Translations under genes and position numbers: made by a program
Notes under the pieces: generated by a model
What the model was told of the DNA's origin: nothing
Databases searched by the model: none
The model's input: only the letters and a program-made list of their open reading frames with translations
Assembly: GCA_016873495.1 (NCBI GenBank)
Contig: VGXC01000013.1
Coordinates: 1 to 64,000 of the forward strand
Source of the DNA: Nitrospira sp.
GTDB taxonomy: Bacteria > Nitrospirota > Nitrospiria > Nitrospirales > Nitrospiraceae
Direction of reading: 5' to 3'
Length of the DNA: 64,000 bases
Shown: positions 35,670 through 52,337 of the stretch, piece by piece
Layout of the letters: the number at the start of each line of letters is the position of its first letter
How positions within the stretch are numbered: the stretch's first letter is position 1

Positions 35670-37390
35670 AGATTCCTCGCCGCCAATATGCAGACCTCTA
35701 CGGGCCGACCGCCGGAGATCGGATTCGCCTGGCCGACACGGAGCTGATCGTCGAAATCGAGAAGGACCTCACGACGCCGGGCGAAGAGGCCAAGTTCGGG
35801 GGTGGGAAAGTCATCCGGGACGGGATGGGCCAGTCGCCTTCGGCAACCCGTGCGGGCGGTGCGCTGGACCTCGTGATCACGAACGCGATCATCCTGGACC
35901 ATTGGGGAATCGTCAAGGCGGACATCGGCATCAAGCACGGACGCATTTCCGGCATCGGAAAGGCGGGCAACCCGGACCTGATGGATGGGGTGACGCCTGG
36001 GATGGAAATTGGCCCGGCCACGGAAGTGCTTTCGGCGGAAGGCAAGATTGTGACGGCCGGCGGCATGGACACCCACATCCATTTCATCTGTCCGCAGATC
36101 ATCACGGAAGGGTTGGCCAACGGCCTCACGTCGCTGATCGGCGGTGGGACCGGCCCGGCCACCGGGACGAACGCAACGACTTGCACGCCCGGCGCCTGGA
36201 ACATCCACCGAATGCTGGAGGCGGCCGAGGGATTTCCCATCAACCTGGGATTTTTGGGCAAGGGGAACTCGTCGCTACCCGAAGGGCTCAACGAGCAGAT
36301 CGAGGCGGGCGCCATCGGGCTCAAACTCCACGAGGATTGGGGCACGACGCCGGCCGCGATCTCCACCTGTTTGGATGTGGCCGAGCAGTACGACGTGCAA
36401 GTGGCGATTCATACCGACACGCTGAACGAGGCCGGGTTCGTCGAGGACACGATCAGGGCATTTGCCGGCCGGACGATCCACTCGTTTCACACGGAGGGAG
36501 CGGGAGGTGGCCATGCGCCGGACATCATCAAGGTCTGCGGCGAACCGAACGTGCTGCCGTCTTCGACGAACCCCACCATGCCCTTCACCGTCAACACAAT
36601 GGATGAGCACCTGGACATGCTCATGGTCTGCCACCATCTCCATCCCCGGGTGCCGGAGGACATCGCCTTTGCCGAGTCCCGCATCCGGCGCGAAACGATC
36701 GCGGCAGAGGACATTCTGCACGACATGGGCGCGATCAGCATCATGTCGTCGGATTCGCAGGCGATGGGGCGGGTCGGGGAGGTGATCATCCGCACGTGGC
36801 AGACGGCGCATAAGATGAAGCTGCAACGCGGGCATCTTAAGGGCCCGGGCGAAGGGGCGAGCGTCACGCACGATAATTTCCGCGCCAGGCGATTCGTGGC
36901 CAAATACACGATCAATCCTGCGATCGCGCATGGAGTCGCCCATGAAGTCGGCTCGGTCGAAGTGGGAAAGCTGGCGGATCTCGTTCTTTGGAAGCCGGCC
37001 TTCTTCGGGGTCAAGCCGGAGATCGTCGTGAAGGGCGGGTTTCCCATGTCCGCGGCGATGGGCGACCCCAACGCTTCGATCCCGACGCCGCAGCCGGTGC
37101 TCACCAGGCCCATGTTCGGGAGCTTTGGTCGGGCCCTCTACAACACCAGCCTGACGTTCGTGTCGCAGGCGGCGTTGGACCGGGAAGTGCCCAAGACTCT
37201 GGGTTTGCAGAAGCGGCTGGCCGTCGTCAAGAAGTGCCGCGGGATCGGTAAGCGCGACCTCAAATTGAACGACGCGCTGCCCAGGATCGAAGTGGACCCG
37301 GAGACCTACGTGGTCAGGGCCGACGGACAGACGCTCTCCTGCGAACCGCTGGCCCTCTTGCCGATGGCACAGCGGTACTTCCTCTTTTAG
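35666..37390 (+). CDS. ureC: Urease subunit alpha (catalytic)
   Basis: This protein has 574 residues, close to the usual 567-570. It hydrolyses urea to ammonia and carbamate at a dinickel site. The carbamylated lysine is Lys220 in [12 protein letters not shown]. Nickel and substrate ligands are in [20 protein letters not shown] and [15 protein letters not shown]. The mobile flap carries [20 protein letters not shown]. The motif [13 protein letters not shown] is intact. All catalytic residues I can check are present, so the enzyme should be active. An inverted-repeat element starts in the base after its stop. Confidence 0.98.
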
Positions 37391-42914: not shown

Positions 42915-44267
42915 CTAGAGAGCGATGGCTGGCCGGCCGAACAGGGTCGTGACAGAAGCATGAGTGACATAGATTGGTACTTTCTCTCCAACCCTCGCGC
43001 GGGAGCCTTCTTTCTCCCACACGACTGTCACGTTGGAGTCCGTATGGCCCATCCATTGGGAGGATGACTTCTTCGCGTCGCCTTCGACGAGGACCTCGAC
43101 GGCGGCGCCGATCAGTGCTTGGTTCTTCCGAAGCGCAATGAGCTTCTGCCTCTCCACGAGCCTGGTGGCGCGGTCGGATTTGATCGCATCCGGGACATCG
43201 TCCGGATATTTTCGGCCCGCGATCGTGTTCTTCCGTTCTGAGTAGACGAAGACGAAGACCTGGTGATAGCCGACCTCCTGCACCGTCCGATAGGTGTCGA
43301 GAAATTCTTCTTCGGTTTCGGTGGGAAACCCGCAGATGACATCCGTAGTCAGCGCGATGTTTTGGCTCCGGCGTCGGATCTCCTCCACCAGGGCCAGGTA
43401 TTCCGTGCGGCTGTAGGTCCGGTCCATGAGGCGCAAGATACGATCGTTGCCCGATTGCAACGGCAGGTGAATGTGCTTGCAGATTTTCGGATGGTCCGCG
43501 ACCGCGTCCAACAGGGCCGGGGGAAAGTCTTTCGGGTGAGGTGAGGTGAAGCGGACCCTGGCGATCCCGGGCACTTCCGCGACGGCCGTAATCAGCCGCG
43601 CGAAGTCCCATCCGTCGTACCGGTAGGAGTTGACGTTCTGTCCCAGAAGCGTGACCTGCTTGTGGCCGTGGGCCGCCAGGTGTTCAGCCTCGCGGATGAT
43701 TCCTTGCGGGTCCCGCGAACGTTCCCGCCCCCTGGTATAGGGCACCACGCAGAAGGTGCAAAAGTTGTCGCAGCCCCGCATGACGGCGATCCAGGCGTTG
43801 AGGCCCTCGGCCCGTTGCGGCAGAATGTCTTCGTAGGTCTCGTACTCGGAGAGATCGACGGCGAGACCCTTCGCGGTGAGGCCCTGCTCTTGCGCCTCGA
43901 TGGCTCGGGTGAGCAAGTCCGGCAATTTGCGATAGGCATCCGGCCCCGCCAGCACGTCCACGATGGATGCCTGGTCCATCAACTCCTGTTTCAGATTTTG
44001 GGCCATGCACCCCAGGACGCCGACGACGAGGTTTCGCTGCTTCTTGATGGTCTTGAGCGTCGCCAGATGTCCGTAGACTTTATTGTGCGCGTGCTCGCGG
44101 ATGGCGCAGGTATTCATCAAGACCACGTCGGCCCGTTCTCGATCTTCGGTAAAGGCAAAGCCCCTGGCCTTGAGCAGGGAGCGGACCAGTTCCGTGTCGT
44201 ACTCGTTCATCTGGCAGCCGAAGGTCTCGATGTGGACTTGATAGGCCGCCGGTGCGCGCGCGATCAT
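42915..44267 (-). CDS. miaB: tRNA-2-methylthio-N6-dimethylallyladenosine synthase
   Basis: This protein has 450 residues from ATG 44267 with GGAGG at good spacing. It is a radical SAM methylthiotransferase acting on A37 of tRNAs that read UNN codons. The N-terminal MTTase domain has the second cluster cysteines in FGCQMNEYD, MNTCAIREH and LGCMAQN. The radical SAM cluster motif is GCDNFCTFCVVPYTRG. A TRAM domain forms the C-terminus (near RVGEKVPIYVTHAS). Its start overlaps the stop of mtaB by four bases, so two related enzymes of tRNA A37 modification are co-translated. Confidence 0.95.
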   Translation of the reverse strand: MIARAPAAYQVHIETFGCQMNEYDTELVRSLLKARGFAFTEDRERADVVLMNTCAIREHAHNKVYGHLATLKTIKKQRNLVVGVLGCMAQNLKQELMDQASIVDVLAGPDAYRKLPDLLTRAIEAQEQGLTAKGLAVDLSEYETYEDILPQRAEGLNAWIAVMRGCDNFCTFCVVPYTRGRERSRDPQGIIREAEHLAAHGHKQVTLLGQNVNSYRYDGWDFARLITAVAEVPGIARVRFTSPHPKDFPPALLDAVADHPKICKHIHLPLQSGNDRILRLMDRTYSRTEYLALVEEIRRRSQNIALTTDVICGFPTETEEEFLDTYRTVQEVGYHQVFVFVYSERKNTIAGRKYPDDVPDAIKSDRATRLVERQKLIALRKNQALIGAAVEVLVEGDAKKSSSQWMGHTDSNVTVVWEKEGSRARVGEKVPIYVTHASVTTLFGRPAIAL

Positions 44268-45625
44268 GCCGAACCTCCGGCCCCGCTCAGGTGTCCCACG
44301 GCCAGCCCGTCCATCGCGCCGGTGACCACGACCGGCTCGATCTGTTTTCTCAGGTCCCGGTGGCTCCGCACGCCGACGCGCAGATAGTTGCCGGTCCAGC
44401 CGGTCCAGAGCCCGGAAGGTTCCCTGGCCTCGAAGAGGACGGGCAAGGTTTGGCCTGTGAACCGCTGATAAAACGCGAGCCGCTTGGCGCGCGAGAGCGA
44501 GGCCAGGGCCTTCGCGCGGGCGCTCAGGGTTGCGGGTTGGATGACATCGGGGAGCTTGACTGCGGCGGTCCCGGGCCGGGCGGAATAATTGAAGACATGA
44601 AAATAGGCCAGCGGCAGGTTGGCGACCAACCGGTAGGAGTTGGCAAAGGCACGATCGTCTTCGCCGGGAAAGCCGACCATGAGATCGGTGCCGAGGCACA
44701 GGTCCGGGATCAGGCTGGCGGCCTTCTGCAGGAAGGAGGCATAGTCGCCGGCGCGGTACCGCCGGTGCATGGCCTGCAGGATGCCATCGTCGCCGCTCTG
44801 CAGCGGGATGTGCAAGTGGTGACAGAGTTTCGCGGAGGCGGCCATGTGGTCCAGCAAGGCATCGGGAATCGTGGTCGGTTCGATGGAGGAAATTCTGATC
44901 CGCGCCACGCCGTCGACTCGCTCCAGTTCCTTGATCAGATCCAGCAGGGATCGTCCACCGTGCCGGTACTGTCCGATGTTGACGCCGGTTAAAATCAGCT
45001 CTCGGTGCCCCCGCGCGACGAGCGCCTCCGCTTCGCGCACAACGTCGGGCAGTTGCCGGCTCCGCTCATGGCCCCGGGCGAAGGGAATGTTGCAGAACGA
45101 GCACATGAAGTTGCAGCCGTCCTGGATTTTCAGGTTGGCTCTCGTAGAGTCGCAGGCGCCCGTTCCGTCCAGGACGAAATCGGCTCGCTCGATGGTATTT
45201 GTGTGCAGCACCAGGGGCGCCGGTTGTTTCGCAAGGTCCGATGGCGCCGGCAGGTAATCGGGCAGGTCCATCTTGTACTGGCCGCCGACGATCAGGTCGA
45301 TGCCGGAGAGGCGCCTGAGTCCCTCGACGCCGGTTTGCGCATAGCATCCCGTCACGGCCACAAAGGCGTGGGGTGAGCGGCGCAAGGTCCGGCGGATTTG
45401 GTAGCGGCAGTCCTTTTCCGCGTCTTCGGTGACGGAGCAACTGTTCAGCACGAACAGGTCGGTCGGCTCGCCGTGCTCCACGAGCTGGTACCCGTCCCGC
45501 TTGAGCCGGTCCGCCAGCAGGGCGGTCTCCGCCTGGTTAAGTCGGCAGCCGATGGTGTGGAGCGAAGCCCTGGGACGGGCCGGCCGCGGCGCCCGGACTT
45601 GTTCTGTCTGCGAATCGAGGTGCAT
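44264..45625 (-). CDS. mtaB: tRNA t6A37 methylthiotransferase MtaB
   Basis: This protein has 453 residues from ATG 45625; the ORF extends upstream but family sequence begins with TIGCRLNQAETALLADRL. It adds a methylthio group to threonylcarbamoyl-A37 of tRNAs reading ANN codons. MTTase cysteines are in TIGCRLNQ, NSCSVTEDAE and VTGCYAQ. The radical SAM motif is GCNFMCSFCNIPFARG. A C-terminal TRAM-like segment follows. It is the first gene of an mtaB-miaB pair. The length is normal for the MiaB/MtaB group. Confidence 0.93.
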   Translation of the reverse strand: MHLDSQTEQVRAPRPARPRASLHTIGCRLNQAETALLADRLKRDGYQLVEHGEPTDLFVLNSCSVTEDAEKDCRYQIRRTLRRSPHAFVAVTGCYAQTGVEGLRRLSGIDLIVGGQYKMDLPDYLPAPSDLAKQPAPLVLHTNTIERADFVLDGTGACDSTRANLKIQDGCNFMCSFCNIPFARGHERSRQLPDVVREAEALVARGHRELILTGVNIGQYRHGGRSLLDLIKELERVDGVARIRISSIEPTTIPDALLDHMAASAKLCHHLHIPLQSGDDGILQAMHRRYRAGDYASFLQKAASLIPDLCLGTDLMVGFPGEDDRAFANSYRLVANLPLAYFHVFNYSARPGTAAVKLPDVIQPATLSARAKALASLSRAKRLAFYQRFTGQTLPVLFEAREPSGLWTGWTGNYLRVGVRSHRDLRKQIEPVVVTGAMDGLAVGHLSGAGGSA

Positions 45626-45830
45626 AGGCTCGCCATTATAGGGGAGTGGGGTGAAGCGGGGCAAGGAGGCCTCGTGCAAGGCGACCGCACGCACGAGTGG
45701 ATTGATCGAGCGTTGACAGGATCGGGCCGGCTGGGTACTATTCGAAAGGCGCGGTTGCGCATGGAACCTGTGGCCGGCCGGTGCCTCATTCGGTATGATC
45801 CCGTGTGGGGGGGGAGAGGGAGGTGCGGGG

Positions 45831-46238
45831 ATGAACGACCTCAGAGCCTGGGTTGGGCTTGTCGTGTTCGGCGTTGCGCTGCTGTCTCCTCCCGCCGGCT
45901 GGTCGAAAGAAACCCTGCCCGTCGAACCGGACGAAAGCACTCGCGTAGACGAGCTGTACGACCATGAAGCCCGCATGTTCCTCATGCTCTACTCGTTGAA
46001 GGGAAACGGAGAGGTGGATTACGTCACCGGCCGCCTGGTGCAGGAACATGCTCGGAGTCACTACGGCAACCCGGTCTATTATACCGAGCCCTTTCCGCTC
46101 TTTTATTGGTGGAACCACACGATGTGGAACGATCCGGAGCAGGATGGGGTGAACGGGAACGAAAAGGTCTATCAAGAGAACATCGACTTCGATCGGACGC
46201 GCTTCAAACCCTGCGTATTCAACGGGCAGCCTTGTTGA
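45831..46238 (+). CDS. Small secreted protein of unknown function
   Basis: This protein has 135 residues from ATG 45831 with GGGAGG upstream. A signal peptide ends near SPPAGWSKE. The mature ~110 residues are acidic and rich in aromatics (NPVYYTEPFPLFYWWNHTMW) with one C-terminal cysteine pair (KPCVFNGQPC). The pattern suggests a small periplasmic or envelope protein with a disulfide. I do not recognise a family. It is divergent from mtaB and upstream of the AmpG-like gene. Confidence 0.7.
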   Translation: MNDLRAWVGLVVFGVALLSPPAGWSKETLPVEPDESTRVDELYDHEARMFLMLYSLKGNGEVDYVTGRLVQEHARSHYGNPVYYTEPFPLFYWWNHTMWNDPEQDGVNGNEKVYQENIDFDRTRFKPCVFNGQPC

Positions 46239-48029: not shown

Positions 48030-48401
48030 ATGAGCAACCGGAGTTTGAGCCTCATCGTGGCGCTGCTGGGGATCAGCGTCTGGCTTGCGCTGACCAACCC
48101 GACGATGCAGGACTATGTCGCCTTTCTGGAGCAACGGTTGGTGCTGGCGCTCGATCGGCGGCCGCAAGGCCAATCGGACCTGGTGGGCGCGCTGCTGACG
48201 GGGCAAGGCCGGCAGGTGATCGAGACCGTCGTACGTCCGAACACGATGCGCCGCAGCTACGGACTCTTCAGCCTCTTTGAAACCAGCCTCCTGGGGGAGC
48301 GGGTTCTGGTGCTCGGAGCCGGAGGAGTCTTCTTGCCTTTGCAAGGCGTCGAGCAAGTGACGAAAAAAGTCGGGTCGCTCGGCCTCCGGCAGGCACAATA
48401 G
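48030..48401 (+). CDS. DUF4359-like small protein
   Basis: This protein has 123 residues from ATG 48030. An N-terminal hydrophobic segment (SLSLIVALLGISVWLALTNP) leads to a polar domain ending with RRSYGLFSLFETSLLGERVL and GAGGVFLPL. The pattern NPTMQDYVAFLEQRL resembles proteins annotated as DUF4359. It is probably membrane-anchored with the domain outside the cytoplasm. The function is unknown. Confidence 0.65.
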   Translation: MSNRSLSLIVALLGISVWLALTNPTMQDYVAFLEQRLVLALDRRPQGQSDLVGALLTGQGRQVIETVVRPNTMRRSYGLFSLFETSLLGERVLVLGAGGVFLPLQGVEQVTKKVGSLGLRQAQ

Positions 48402-48540
48402 GTCCTTTCCGAGGGCATTCCACAGCCCGATTACCTGTTGATATCTGACGGTCGAGTTGGGTCTCAGCCGCATGGGCTGCGGCGATTTTTCTATCCACAG
48501 CCTTTCCCTCCCAATCAACAGGACCCCACAACATTTGGTA

Positions 48541-48569
48541 TTGACAAACGATGGGCTTCGCCATATATT
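48541..48569 (+). promoter_or_regulatory. Strong sigma-70 promoter upstream of nrdJ
   Basis: A perfect -35 TTGACA (48541-48546) and -10 TATATT (48564-48569) are spaced by 17 bases. Transcription should begin at about 48575-48577, right at the 5' arm of the leader RNA's closing helix. Confidence 0.8.
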
Positions 48570-48574
48570 GCGGT

Positions 48575-48735
48575 TCGTCCGGTTTTCTAGAGGTGATGCA
48601 CATGTCGAACGGGGGCCTCAGATGACGCGATCTGAACCTCTCAACCTCCAGGGTCAGCCGGACGAACGAGCCAGGACAGGGGTTTCCTGAACGGAAGCGA
48701 ACACTGCGGACTCCCGGTGTTCGCTTTTCTTTTTG
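48575..48735 (+). ncRNA. Structured leader RNA or small RNA in front of nrdJ
   Basis: A transcript from the promoter would begin with TCGTCCGG, which pairs perfectly with CCGGACGA at 48658-48665 (the arms extend to GTTCGTCCGG/CCGGACGAAC if the two bases upstream are included). Inside, AGAGGT pairs with ACCTCT, and AGAT with ATCT. The RNA ends in an intrinsic terminator at 48695-48735. The word CGAAC in the terminator arm could instead pair with the 5' GTTCG, giving a possible on/off switch. I do not recognise the cobalamin riboswitch or another known class in it. It could be an attenuator of nrdJ or a free small RNA. Confidence 0.55.
48695..48735 (+). terminator. Intrinsic terminator upstream of nrdJ
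   Basis: AAGCGAACAC (48695-48704) pairs perfectly with GTGTTCGCTT (48717-48726) around a 12-base loop, followed by TTCTTTTT. It lies 57 bases before the nrdJ start. It is placed where a regulated leader terminator would be. Confidence 0.88.
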
Positions 48736-48791
48736 GCACCCAGGGCCGGATGAGCCCGAATCGGGTCCCATAACCAGCAGGAGGAGACATT

Positions 48792-51700
48792 GTGAGGATC
48801 GAGCGTCGCTTTACGCAACGAGGGCAGAGTCCCTACCAGGGCCTGCCGTTCGCCAAGCGTTCCTCGGAGATCAAGAACCCCGATGGCTCCACGGTCTTTA
48901 AGCTGGACAACATCGATGTGCCCGAGAAATGGACCCAACTCGCCGTCGACATCCTGGCGCAGAAATACTTCCGGAAGGCCGGCGTGCCCCAGGTCGGTCC
49001 CGACGGAAAACCCCTGCTCAACCAGGAGGGCAAGCAAGTGCTGGGCGGCGAACGGGATGCGCGGCAGGTCTTTCACCGGCTGGCCGGTTGCTGGACTCAA
49101 TGGGGAAAGAGCTACGGCTACTTCACCAAGGACGAAGACGCCTCCGCCTTCTACGACGAGATGTGCTACATGCTGGCGCGTCAAATGGCGGCGCCCAACT
49201 CGCCCCAGTGGTTCAACACGGGCCTGCACTATGCCTACGGCCTCTCCGGCCCGTCCCAGGGGCACTATTATGTCGATCCGAAGAGCAAGGAGATGGTGAA
49301 GGCCGCGAACGCCTTCGAGCATCCCCAGCCGCACGCCTGCTTCATCCAATCGGTGGACGACGATCTGGTCAACGAGGGCGGGATCATGGACCTCTGGACC
49401 AGGGAGGCGAGGCTGTTCAAGTACGGGTCCGGCACCGGCACGAACTTTTCCAAGCTGCGCGGGGACAACGAGCCCCTGTCCGGCGGCGGCCGTTCCTCCG
49501 GCCTGATGTCCTTTCTCCGGATCGGCGACCGGGCGGCCGGCGCCATCAAGTCCGGCGGAACCACGAGGCGCGCGGCCAAGATGGTCTGCCTGGACCTGGA
49601 CCATCCCGACATCGAAGAGTTCGTCGACTGGAAGGTGGTCGAGGAGCAGAAGGTGGCGGCCATGGTCACCGGCTCCAAGATCTGCGCGCAGCGCCTGAAC
49701 GAAGTGCTCCGCGCCTGCCACGAGCAGGACGGCAACGGCGCGACGAAAGTCGAGATCGATCCGGCGAAGAACGAGGCCCTCAAGCGGGCCATCAAGGCCG
49801 CGCGGCAGGCGGCTGTGTCGGAGGCCTACATCCAACGGATGTTCTCCTACGCCCAGGAGGGGTTCACCCACTTCGTCTTCCACGAGTACGACACGAACTG
49901 GGACGGCAAGGCCTACCAGACCGTGTCGGGGCAGAATTCCAACAACAGCGTGCGCATTCCCAACGGGTTCTTCGAGGCCCTGGAGCAGGACGGGGACTGG
50001 GCGCTCAAGCGCCGCACGGACGGCAAGGTCGTCAAGACCGTTAAGGCCCGCGAGCTCTGGGACAAGATCGCCTGGGCCGCCTGGATCTGCGCCGACCCCG
50101 GCACGCAGTACGACACGACGATCAACGAATGGCACACCTGCCCGGAGGACGGGCGCATCAATGCGTCCAACCCTTGCAGCGAGTACATGTTCCTGGACGA
50201 CACGGCCTGTAACCTGGCCTCGCTGAACCTGGGCGAATTCTACGAAGCCGACGGCCAGTTGCGGCTGGATGATTTCCGCCATGCCGTGCGGCTCTGGACC
50301 ATTGCGCTGGAAATCAGCGTGCTGATGGCATCGTTCCCGAGCAAGGCTATTGCCGAAAAGAGCTTCATCTACCGCACGCTGGGGCTGGGCTATGCCAATT
50401 TAGGGACGGTGCTCATGCGGCAGGGGATTCCCTACGATTCTCCGAAGGCCCTGGCGATCTGCGGGGCGCTCACGGCGATCCTGACCGGCGAGTCCTATGC
50501 GGCTTCGGCGGAAATGGCGGCCGAGTTGGGCCCCTTCGACGGGTATGCACGAAACCGCGAGCCCATGCTCCGGGTCATCCGCAACCACCGGCGGGCGGCG
50601 TACCATGCGGCGCCGGAGGAGTACGAGGGGCTGACGATCAAGCCGCAAGGCATTCAGCCGGAACATTGCCCGCCGGACCTGTTGATCGGAGCGCGGCGGG
50701 CTTGGGACAAAGCGCTGGAGCTGGGCACGGCGTATGGGTTCCGCAACGCGCAGGTGACGTGCATTGCCCCCACCGGCACGATCGGGCTCGTTATGGACTG
50801 CGACACGACCGGGATCGAGCCGGATTTTGCACTCGTGAAATTCAAGAAGCTGGCCGGCGGCGGCTACTTCAAGATCATCAACCAAAGCATTCCGCCGGCG
50901 CTGGTGACGCTCGGGTACAACGAGGCGCAGGTTCAGGAGATCGTCACTTTCTGCACCGGCCGCCGCACGCTGAAAGGGGCGCCGTTCATCAATCACGAAA
51001 GCCTGCAAGCCAAGGGTTTCGACGGAGCGGCGCTGGACCGGCTGGAAGCGGGCCTGGGCCAGGCCTTCGAGATCCAGTTTGCGTTCAACAAGTGGACGCT
51101 GGGGGAGGAATTCTGCCGCGAGAAGCTCGGCTTGCTCGACGCGCAGTTCAACGAGCCCAATTTCAACATGCTCAAGGCGCTCGGGTTCACCCAGGAACAG
51201 ATCGTCGTGGCCAACGACTACTGCTGCGGCACTATGACCGTCGAGGGGGCGCCGCACCTGCTGCCGGAGCACCTGCCGGTCTTCGACTGCGCCAACCGCT
51301 GCGGGCGCACGGGGCAGCGCTACATCGCCGTGGACGCCCACATCCGGATGATGGCGGCGGCGCAGCCTTTCATCAGCGGAGCAATCAGCAAGACTATCAA
51401 CATGCCGGCGGATGCGACGGTGGAGGAGGTGAAGGCCTCCTATCTCCTGTCCTGGCACTCGATGGTCAAAGCCGTGGCCCTCTATCGGGACGGCTCCAAG
51501 CTCAGCCAGCCGCTCAACTCGGCCTCGGATTCCGGCGAGTTGGCCGAGGCAGCGGCAAGCGGGGACGTGCTGACCGCCGCCGAGAAGATCACCGAGCGGG
51601 TGCTCGTTCGGTACCTGGCGAGGCGGCGGCGGATGCCGGAACGGCGTTTGGGCTACACGCAGAAGGCGATCGTGGGCGGGCACAAGATTTATCTGCGGAC

Positions 51701-52337
51701 CGGCGAGTACAGCGACGGGACCGTGGGCGAGATCTTCCTGGACATGCACAAGGAAGGCGCGGCCTTCCGTAGCCTCATGAACTGTTTCGCGATCGCCATT
51801 TCGCTGGGACTCCAGCATGGGGTGCCGCTGGAGGAGTTCGTCGAGGCCTTCGTGTTCACCCGGTTCGAGCCCAACGGCCCGGTCAAGCTGAACGACCGGA
51901 TCAAGATGTCCACCTCGATCATCGACTACATCTTTCGCGAGTTGGCCATCACCTACCTGGGCCGCCACGACCTGGCGCAAGTAGTGCCGGAAGACCTGCG
52001 CATGGATTCGGTGAAGAAGGACGCGCAGGACCCCGAGTGCAAGGACAGCGAAGAGGCGGACCCGCAGGCCCTCGCGTCCTCCTCGATCAGCACGGAGATC
52101 TTTCCGGCCAGGCGCAGAAACGGCAACGGCAGCAACGGGCACGGCAACGGTGAAAACGGCGCGGTGGCGCACAAGCTGGAGCTGAAACGCGAGACGCTGA
52201 CCTATACGACCGTCGAACTGGCGCGCTTGAAGGGCTACGAAGGCGATCCTTGTCAGAACTGTAAGGAGTTTACGTTGGTGCGCAACGGCACCTGTCTTAA
52301 GTGCATGAACTGCGGCGCGACGAGCGGCTGCTCTTGA
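48792..52337 (+). CDS. nrdJ: Adenosylcobalamin-dependent (class II) ribonucleotide reductase
   Basis: This protein has 1181 residues from GTG 48792 with AGGAGGAG upstream. It reduces ribonucleotides to deoxyribonucleotides using adenosylcobalamin, independent of oxygen. The 10-stranded barrel core has [20 protein letters not shown] and the finger-loop region NACSE-like segment. Later segments are [19 protein letters not shown] and [14 protein letters not shown]. The C-terminus has a TSCPD-type region (near [15 protein letters not shown]), a Gly/Asn-rich linker ([15 protein letters not shown]) and a zinc-ribbon-like tail CQNCKEF...[13 protein letters not shown] with redox cysteines. The length fits long class II enzymes. 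Expression is probably controlled by the upstream leader RNA. Confidence 0.95.

Follow-up and report, generated by a model that had tools for sequence, protein, structure and literature searches.

The gene nrdJ of Nitrospira sp., encoding an adenosylcobalamin-dependent class II ribonucleotide reductase, lies behind a consensus promoter, a leader with predicted structure and an intrinsic terminator, which raises the question of what decides whether transcription reaches the gene. A sequence-only reading of this locus had proposed a structured RNA acting as a switch, with a cobalamin or nucleotide ligand and possibly of a new class, or else a free small RNA, and had overlooked two features, i.e. 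a pair of NrdR boxes and a short ORF in the leader. Here, the locus is considered within the window, i.e. the whole stretch of 64,000 nucleotides analysed (contig VGXC01000013.1, assembly GCA_016873495.1), and in related genomes (Table 1). On balance, and with some reserve, we favour a leader-peptide transcription attenuator behind an NrdR-repressed promoter, which would place nrdJ under two-stage control. The region seems to put a known control principle to new use and does not look like a new riboswitch.

Table 1. Features of the nrdJ locus, with positions counted from the first base of the window
Feature	Position	Strand	Basis
DnaA-box-like site CTATCCACA, one mismatch to TTATCCACA	48491..48499	+	box scan
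NrdR box 1 (NrdR-box-like), CCACAACATTTGGTAT	48526..48541	.	palindrome scoring
-35 hexamer TTGACA	48541..48546	+	sequence, promoter scan
NrdR box 2 (NrdR-box-like), TCGCCATATATTGCGG, over the -10 hexamer	48558..48573	.	palindrome scoring
-10 hexamer TATATT	48564..48569	+	sequence, promoter scan
Long-range helix, 5' arm	48573..48582	+	fold
Shine-Dalgarno-like GGGGG of the leader ORF (GAGG in relatives)	48611..48615	+	sequence
Invariant element CAGATG-N5-ATCTGA-N-CCTC, 22 nt	48619..48640	+	exact-match search
Leader ORF, 22 codons, MTRSEPLNLQGQPDERARTGVS, stop TGA at 48688-48690	48622..48690	+	ORF comparison
Long-range helix, 3' arm, within the leader ORF	48658..48667	+	fold
Intrinsic terminator, stem 48693-48728, T tract to 48734	48693..48734	+	fold, terminator scan
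nrdJ Shine-Dalgarno AGGAGGAG	48779..48786	+	sequence
nrdJ, adenosylcobalamin-dependent class II ribonucleotide reductase, 1181 aa, start codon GTG	48792..52337	+	NF005736

The promoter of nrdJ and its NrdR and DnaA boxes

The nrdJ product is full-length (NF005736, 1948.6 bits against a cut-off of 1737) and free of inteins. The nrdJ frames of several relatives (G002, G014, G022, G016, G005, G007 and others) stay open over 1550-2230 aa, and their NrdJ match mostly breaks near residue 184, i.e. these frames carry inteins. L221 (G000 contig C21:16089-18596, minus strand) encodes another class II ribonucleotide reductase, 952 aa long and apparently interrupted mid-protein by an intein; NrdR boxes and a terminator were not evident upstream of it.

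The promoter already recognized in front of the leader stands as described: TTGACA-17-TATATT (48541-48569) agrees with the consensus at 11 of 12 positions, one such site being found where 0.2 were expected. From these hexamers, the leader transcript is expected to start near 48576. Scoring of the palindrome ACACWATATATWGTGT located the two NrdR boxes, which are arranged in tandem 32 bp apart from centre to centre, with a 16-bp spacer, so that the promoter sits within the pair and the boxes overlap the -35/-10 region. The pair is conserved across the family, being found upstream of nrdJ also in the relatives checked, with a spacing of 41-42 bp in two genera (G022, G016). Boxes separated by three or four turns of the helix are bound by NrdR proteins from several phyla (PMC12051234), and the nrdJ promoter likewise carries two boxes at an integral spacing of three or four turns. 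Such boxes often overlap the polymerase site (PMC9110341). Moreover, the genome encodes nrdR (TIGR00244, 199.7 bits against a cut-off of 124.65). The anatomy of the site, together with this gene, indicates that NrdR probably represses the nrdJ promoter.

When 48300-48540 of the window and the homologous regions of relatives were considered, 90 of 102 regions from the family and order showed exact DnaA boxes (TTWTNCACA) shortly before the NrdR boxes of nrdJ. These 102 regions contain 116 boxes, compared with 2 in the shuffled control. Their conservation suggests that nrdJ may be under replication-linked control.

A short reading frame that ends at the terminator

The intrinsic terminator had been placed 57 bases before the reductase gene, and this was confirmed, the distance being measured from the T tract to the GTG. 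In each of the 14 genomes with the leader, the only strong promoter precedes it; a scan against the sigma-70 consensus, requiring at least 9 of 12 matches, detected no further promoter beyond the start of the leader. With no other promoter found between leader and nrdJ, the gene appears to depend on read-through of this terminator, which precedes the first structural gene. The hairpins of other genera differ widely in sequence (GCGAACAC, GCAGGCGCCGC, GTGGATGCC, GCGAATA, GCGGGC), and the hairpin is therefore preserved via compensating change.

Between promoter and terminator lies a short ORF with a start codon and a ribosome-binding site, which begins within the 'core' of the sequence-only reading and stops 2-3 nt before the terminator stem, i.e. 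near enough for the position of a ribosome to decide whether the terminator forms. The nrdJ upstream regions of about 100 members of the family and order were gathered. Fourteen genomes bear the terminator, and 13 of them, from nine genera, have an ORF whose stop lies 0-3 nt from the stem; it spans 22-31 codons, or more if some alternative starts are used. The distance is held although the ORFs, peptides and terminators of the nine genera differ in sequence. In the fourteenth genome (G028), the frame preceded by a Shine-Dalgarno sequence passes beyond the terminator, and the one frame that stops at the stem is another, internal one. The Shine-Dalgarno sequence is weak or not clear in three genomes (G007, G009, G024). 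Both observations are counted against an attenuator.

When the last six bases, including the stop triplet, were kept and the remaining leader was dinucleotide-shuffled, the probability that an ORF of 20 codons or more, opened by ATG, ran to that stop was 0.03-0.27 per genome. Multiplied over the nine genera this gives about 1e-9, an optimistic figure that assumes independence of related genera. The conserved arrangement, in which a short ORF comes to its stop at the foot of the terminator, points to ribosome-mediated attenuation.

The frame is maintained, as judged from these comparisons, and the peptide sequence is not. Within the window's genus (G000-G002), pN/pS of the leader ORF is about 1 (pN 0.198, pS 0.195), compared with about 0.1 at the start of nrdJ (pN 0.029, pS 0.243), as expected if the act of translation matters rather than the peptide. 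The leader peptides of more distant genera gave no alignment. No regulatory codon run was found in the leader peptides, which rules out the trp/his subtype alone; amino-acid attenuation was rejected on this ground, as was a small conserved protein given a pN/pS of about 1.

Around the start codon, an element of 22 nt is invariant. It occurs exactly in 8 genomes of 4 genera, once per genome and only upstream of nrdJ (175 genomes searched), while one-mismatch copies elsewhere are about as frequent as in a reversed control. Its CAGAT/ATCTG halves could form a hairpin that would enclose the leader start codon; as all core pairs are invariant, covariation speaks neither for nor against this hairpin. 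Two recurring residues of the leader peptide in four genera, S4 and P6, fall in the invariant string, and their codons are rare in nrdJ (TCT for 2 of 61 Ser, CCT for 3 of 51 Pro). Rarity and overlap together make S and P look like the result of an RNA or DNA constraint. It is conceivable, if doubtful, that the element binds a factor, i.e. a protein, NrdJ itself or a small molecule, that would decide leader translation, so that a sensor of leader-ORF initiation would control nrdJ transcription via the terminator, and with it dNTP supply, as a second layer besides NrdR.

The leader RNA and the competing explanations

The structured RNA invoked earlier rested on a perfect closing helix, GTCCGG/CCGGAC, with transcription beginning at its first base. 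The helix is there and even extends to 10 bp (GTTCGTCCGG with CCGGACGAAC), but normal spacing from the -10 hexamer may leave its outermost 3-4 bases untranscribed, and it is perfect only in G000 and G003, its sister species G001 and G002 having uncompensated mismatches. A riboswitch would use this 5' helix and core to control the terminator by alternative pairing, in response to cobalamin, a dNTP or another ligand. In its favour, 48572-48735 folds better than dinucleotide shuffles (z = -3.2), also when the terminator is taken away (z = -3.0); an invariant hairpin motif is present; and helices between the 5' end and the ORF stand modestly above shuffles (P 0.01-0.12) in G000, G003, G037, G022, G014 and G018, so that such a helix may exist in several genera. 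Against it, the fold excess is absent from the G001 leader (z = 0.1), and homolog comparison upstream of nrdJ, in which covariation had been looked for, revealed no compensatory change in 35 pairs of the G000 fold and three broken outer pairs among four sister species. The conserved core comprises just 22 nt and overlaps a coding frame. The motif CGAAC is indeed contained in the 5' arm of the terminator, but the proposed switch to pairing with the 5' strand does not exceed chance expectation (P = 0.3) and lacks conservation. Rfam gave no match to the leader at gathering thresholds, and the matches listed up to E = 10 were merely at chance level, far below threshold. The covariance model of the cobalamin riboswitch (RF00174) likewise found nothing; the sequence-only reading had not been able to match the core to that consensus. 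A ligand-binding RNA, which the sequence-only reading found attractive, is without a family match and without compensatory changes, and we hold it to be quite improbable.

We regard it as unlikely, too, that the ORF is a real small-protein gene on the nrdJ promoter, with a terminator giving partial read-through at a fixed ratio and thereby lowering nrdJ expression. Shine-Dalgarno sequence, ORF and terminator would be normal gene anatomy, and residues recur in the peptide (S-E-P at 4-6, Q-P-D near 12-14). The leader pN/pS and the rare codons of S and P within the invariant motif argue otherwise, as do the unrelated peptides of g5, g7, g16 and g22 and the fixed distance of 0-3 nt from stop to stem, compared with 20-27 nt at the window's two or three plausible gene-end terminators, which are few data. 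Less probable by far is a free small RNA acting elsewhere, with nrdJ downstream by accident: promoter, structured RNA and terminator do form a compact unit of about 155 nt, but wherever it occurs among related genomes, 14 in all, this unit directly precedes nrdJ, once per genome and never elsewhere, nrdJ has no other recognizable promoter, and the NrdR boxes identify the promoter as belonging to a reductase gene. The leader therefore belongs to nrdJ.

Two further forms of RNA control were tried and rejected. The leader pairs with the terminator's 5' arm no better than shuffled sequences do, and this applies to any leader-terminator antiterminator; nor did this pairing test find a conserved competing antiterminator hairpin, which the pyrBI type of attenuation does not need. 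Sequestration of the leader ribosome-binding site by codons downstream of it, through GAGG/CCTC pairing, is attractive by eye, but neither opening energies nor exact complementarity differed significantly from those of shuffles.

Two other observations were made in the window. At 35812-36110 on the minus strand, Rfam matches 5_ureB_sRNA (RF02514, 100.8 bits), possibly a conserved urease coding sequence and not a small RNA. At 42915-45985, also on the minus strand, two adjacent MiaB/MtaB-type methylthiotransferase-like ORFs have listed ends that overlap.

Proposed two-stage control and its distribution in the family

In the favoured attenuator, NrdR, sensing ATP/dATP, would bind the two boxes over the -35/-10 region and repress initiation, and each transcript would then encounter the terminator ahead of nrdJ. 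A ribosome following close behind the polymerase and standing at the leader stop codon would cover the 5' arm of the hairpin, allowing read-through into nrdJ; if the leader were untranslated or the ribosome lagged, the hairpin would form and transcription would stop. In Escherichia coli, termination fell from about 90 % to under 10 % when the distance between a stop codon and the terminator behind it was cut from 28 to 5 bp, and full termination required more than 27 nt between the two (PMC4824070). A terminator that lies within the first ~100 bp of a coding sequence can evade such repression because the ribosome has not caught up, except where the polymerase pauses, as in pyrBI (PMC4824070). 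Therefore, translation of the nrdJ leader may come too late unless the polymerase pauses. As far as sequence can tell, the leader is probably translated and read-through probably depends on the ribosome. By analogy, the leader geometry would be poised to respond to the rate of leader initiation, polymerase pausing or the speed of translation, and our favoured guess is that the input would be pausing or translation rate coupled to nucleotide supply, as for pyrBI.

The leader indeed resembles that of E. coli pyrBI (PyrL) in having a short ORF before an intrinsic terminator and a nucleotide-metabolism gene downstream, and in that a ribosome close behind the polymerase would block the hairpin, requiring neither peptide conservation nor an antiterminator. 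In pyrBI, however, the leader frame continues into the terminator; the nrdJ leader has a stop codon abutting the stem, no identified U-rich pause cluster and, in Nitrospiraceae, a class II ribonucleotide reductase gene behind it. With trpL and hisL it shares a leader ORF, a terminator and a single upstream promoter, but not the regulatory codon run or conserved antiterminator pairing. It has in common with cobalamin riboswitches that it precedes a gene of B12-related metabolism, the covariance model setting them apart. Finally, the two NrdR boxes about 32 bp apart over the polymerase site recall NrdR-repressed promoters such as those of nrdRJ and nrdAB of Streptomyces coelicolor. The NrdR literature consulted describes repression of initiation; the region studied here adds a putative attenuator. 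The literature search yielded neither an attenuator behind an NrdR promoter nor, in the papers open to it without subscription, a leader-peptide attenuator for a ribonucleotide reductase.

In a tree of 48 NrdJ N-termini, with modest support for the deep forks, the leader-bearing genera (g1, g8, g12, g20, g14, g16, g5, g7 and g22) branch early, outside a 22-row Nitrospira clade (g3, g13, g21, g15, g19, g6, g10, g17 and g2) that has kept the NrdR promoter and has no leader terminator. Only 5 weak candidates for such a terminator were found in the 88 regions without a leader. On the simplest reading of these sequences, the attenuator would have arisen in the family ancestor and been lost in the Nitrospira clade; g9, g11, g18 and G033 look degenerate. 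A contig scan for further close relatives with the leader returned only GW928_bin.19, apparently the same assembly as G028. In some genomes of the Nitrospira clade (for example L064, L062, L063 and L015), a short ORF was noticed by eye whose TGA overlaps the nrdJ GTG. Such frames were dismissed as leader ORFs, as they are not conserved and may be due to chance.

The locus illustrates that a call of 'structured RNA' can conceal a leader ORF, and the apparent loss of the attenuator in the Nitrospira clade, with the promoter kept, would offer a natural comparison. Control of bacterial ribonucleotide reductases has been described mainly at initiation, i.e. by NrdR and DnaA, and as allostery of the enzyme. 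If our reading is true, dNTP synthesis would be tied to translation or to nucleotide supply through a second level of control, i.e. a translation-coupled attenuator that follows an NrdR promoter.
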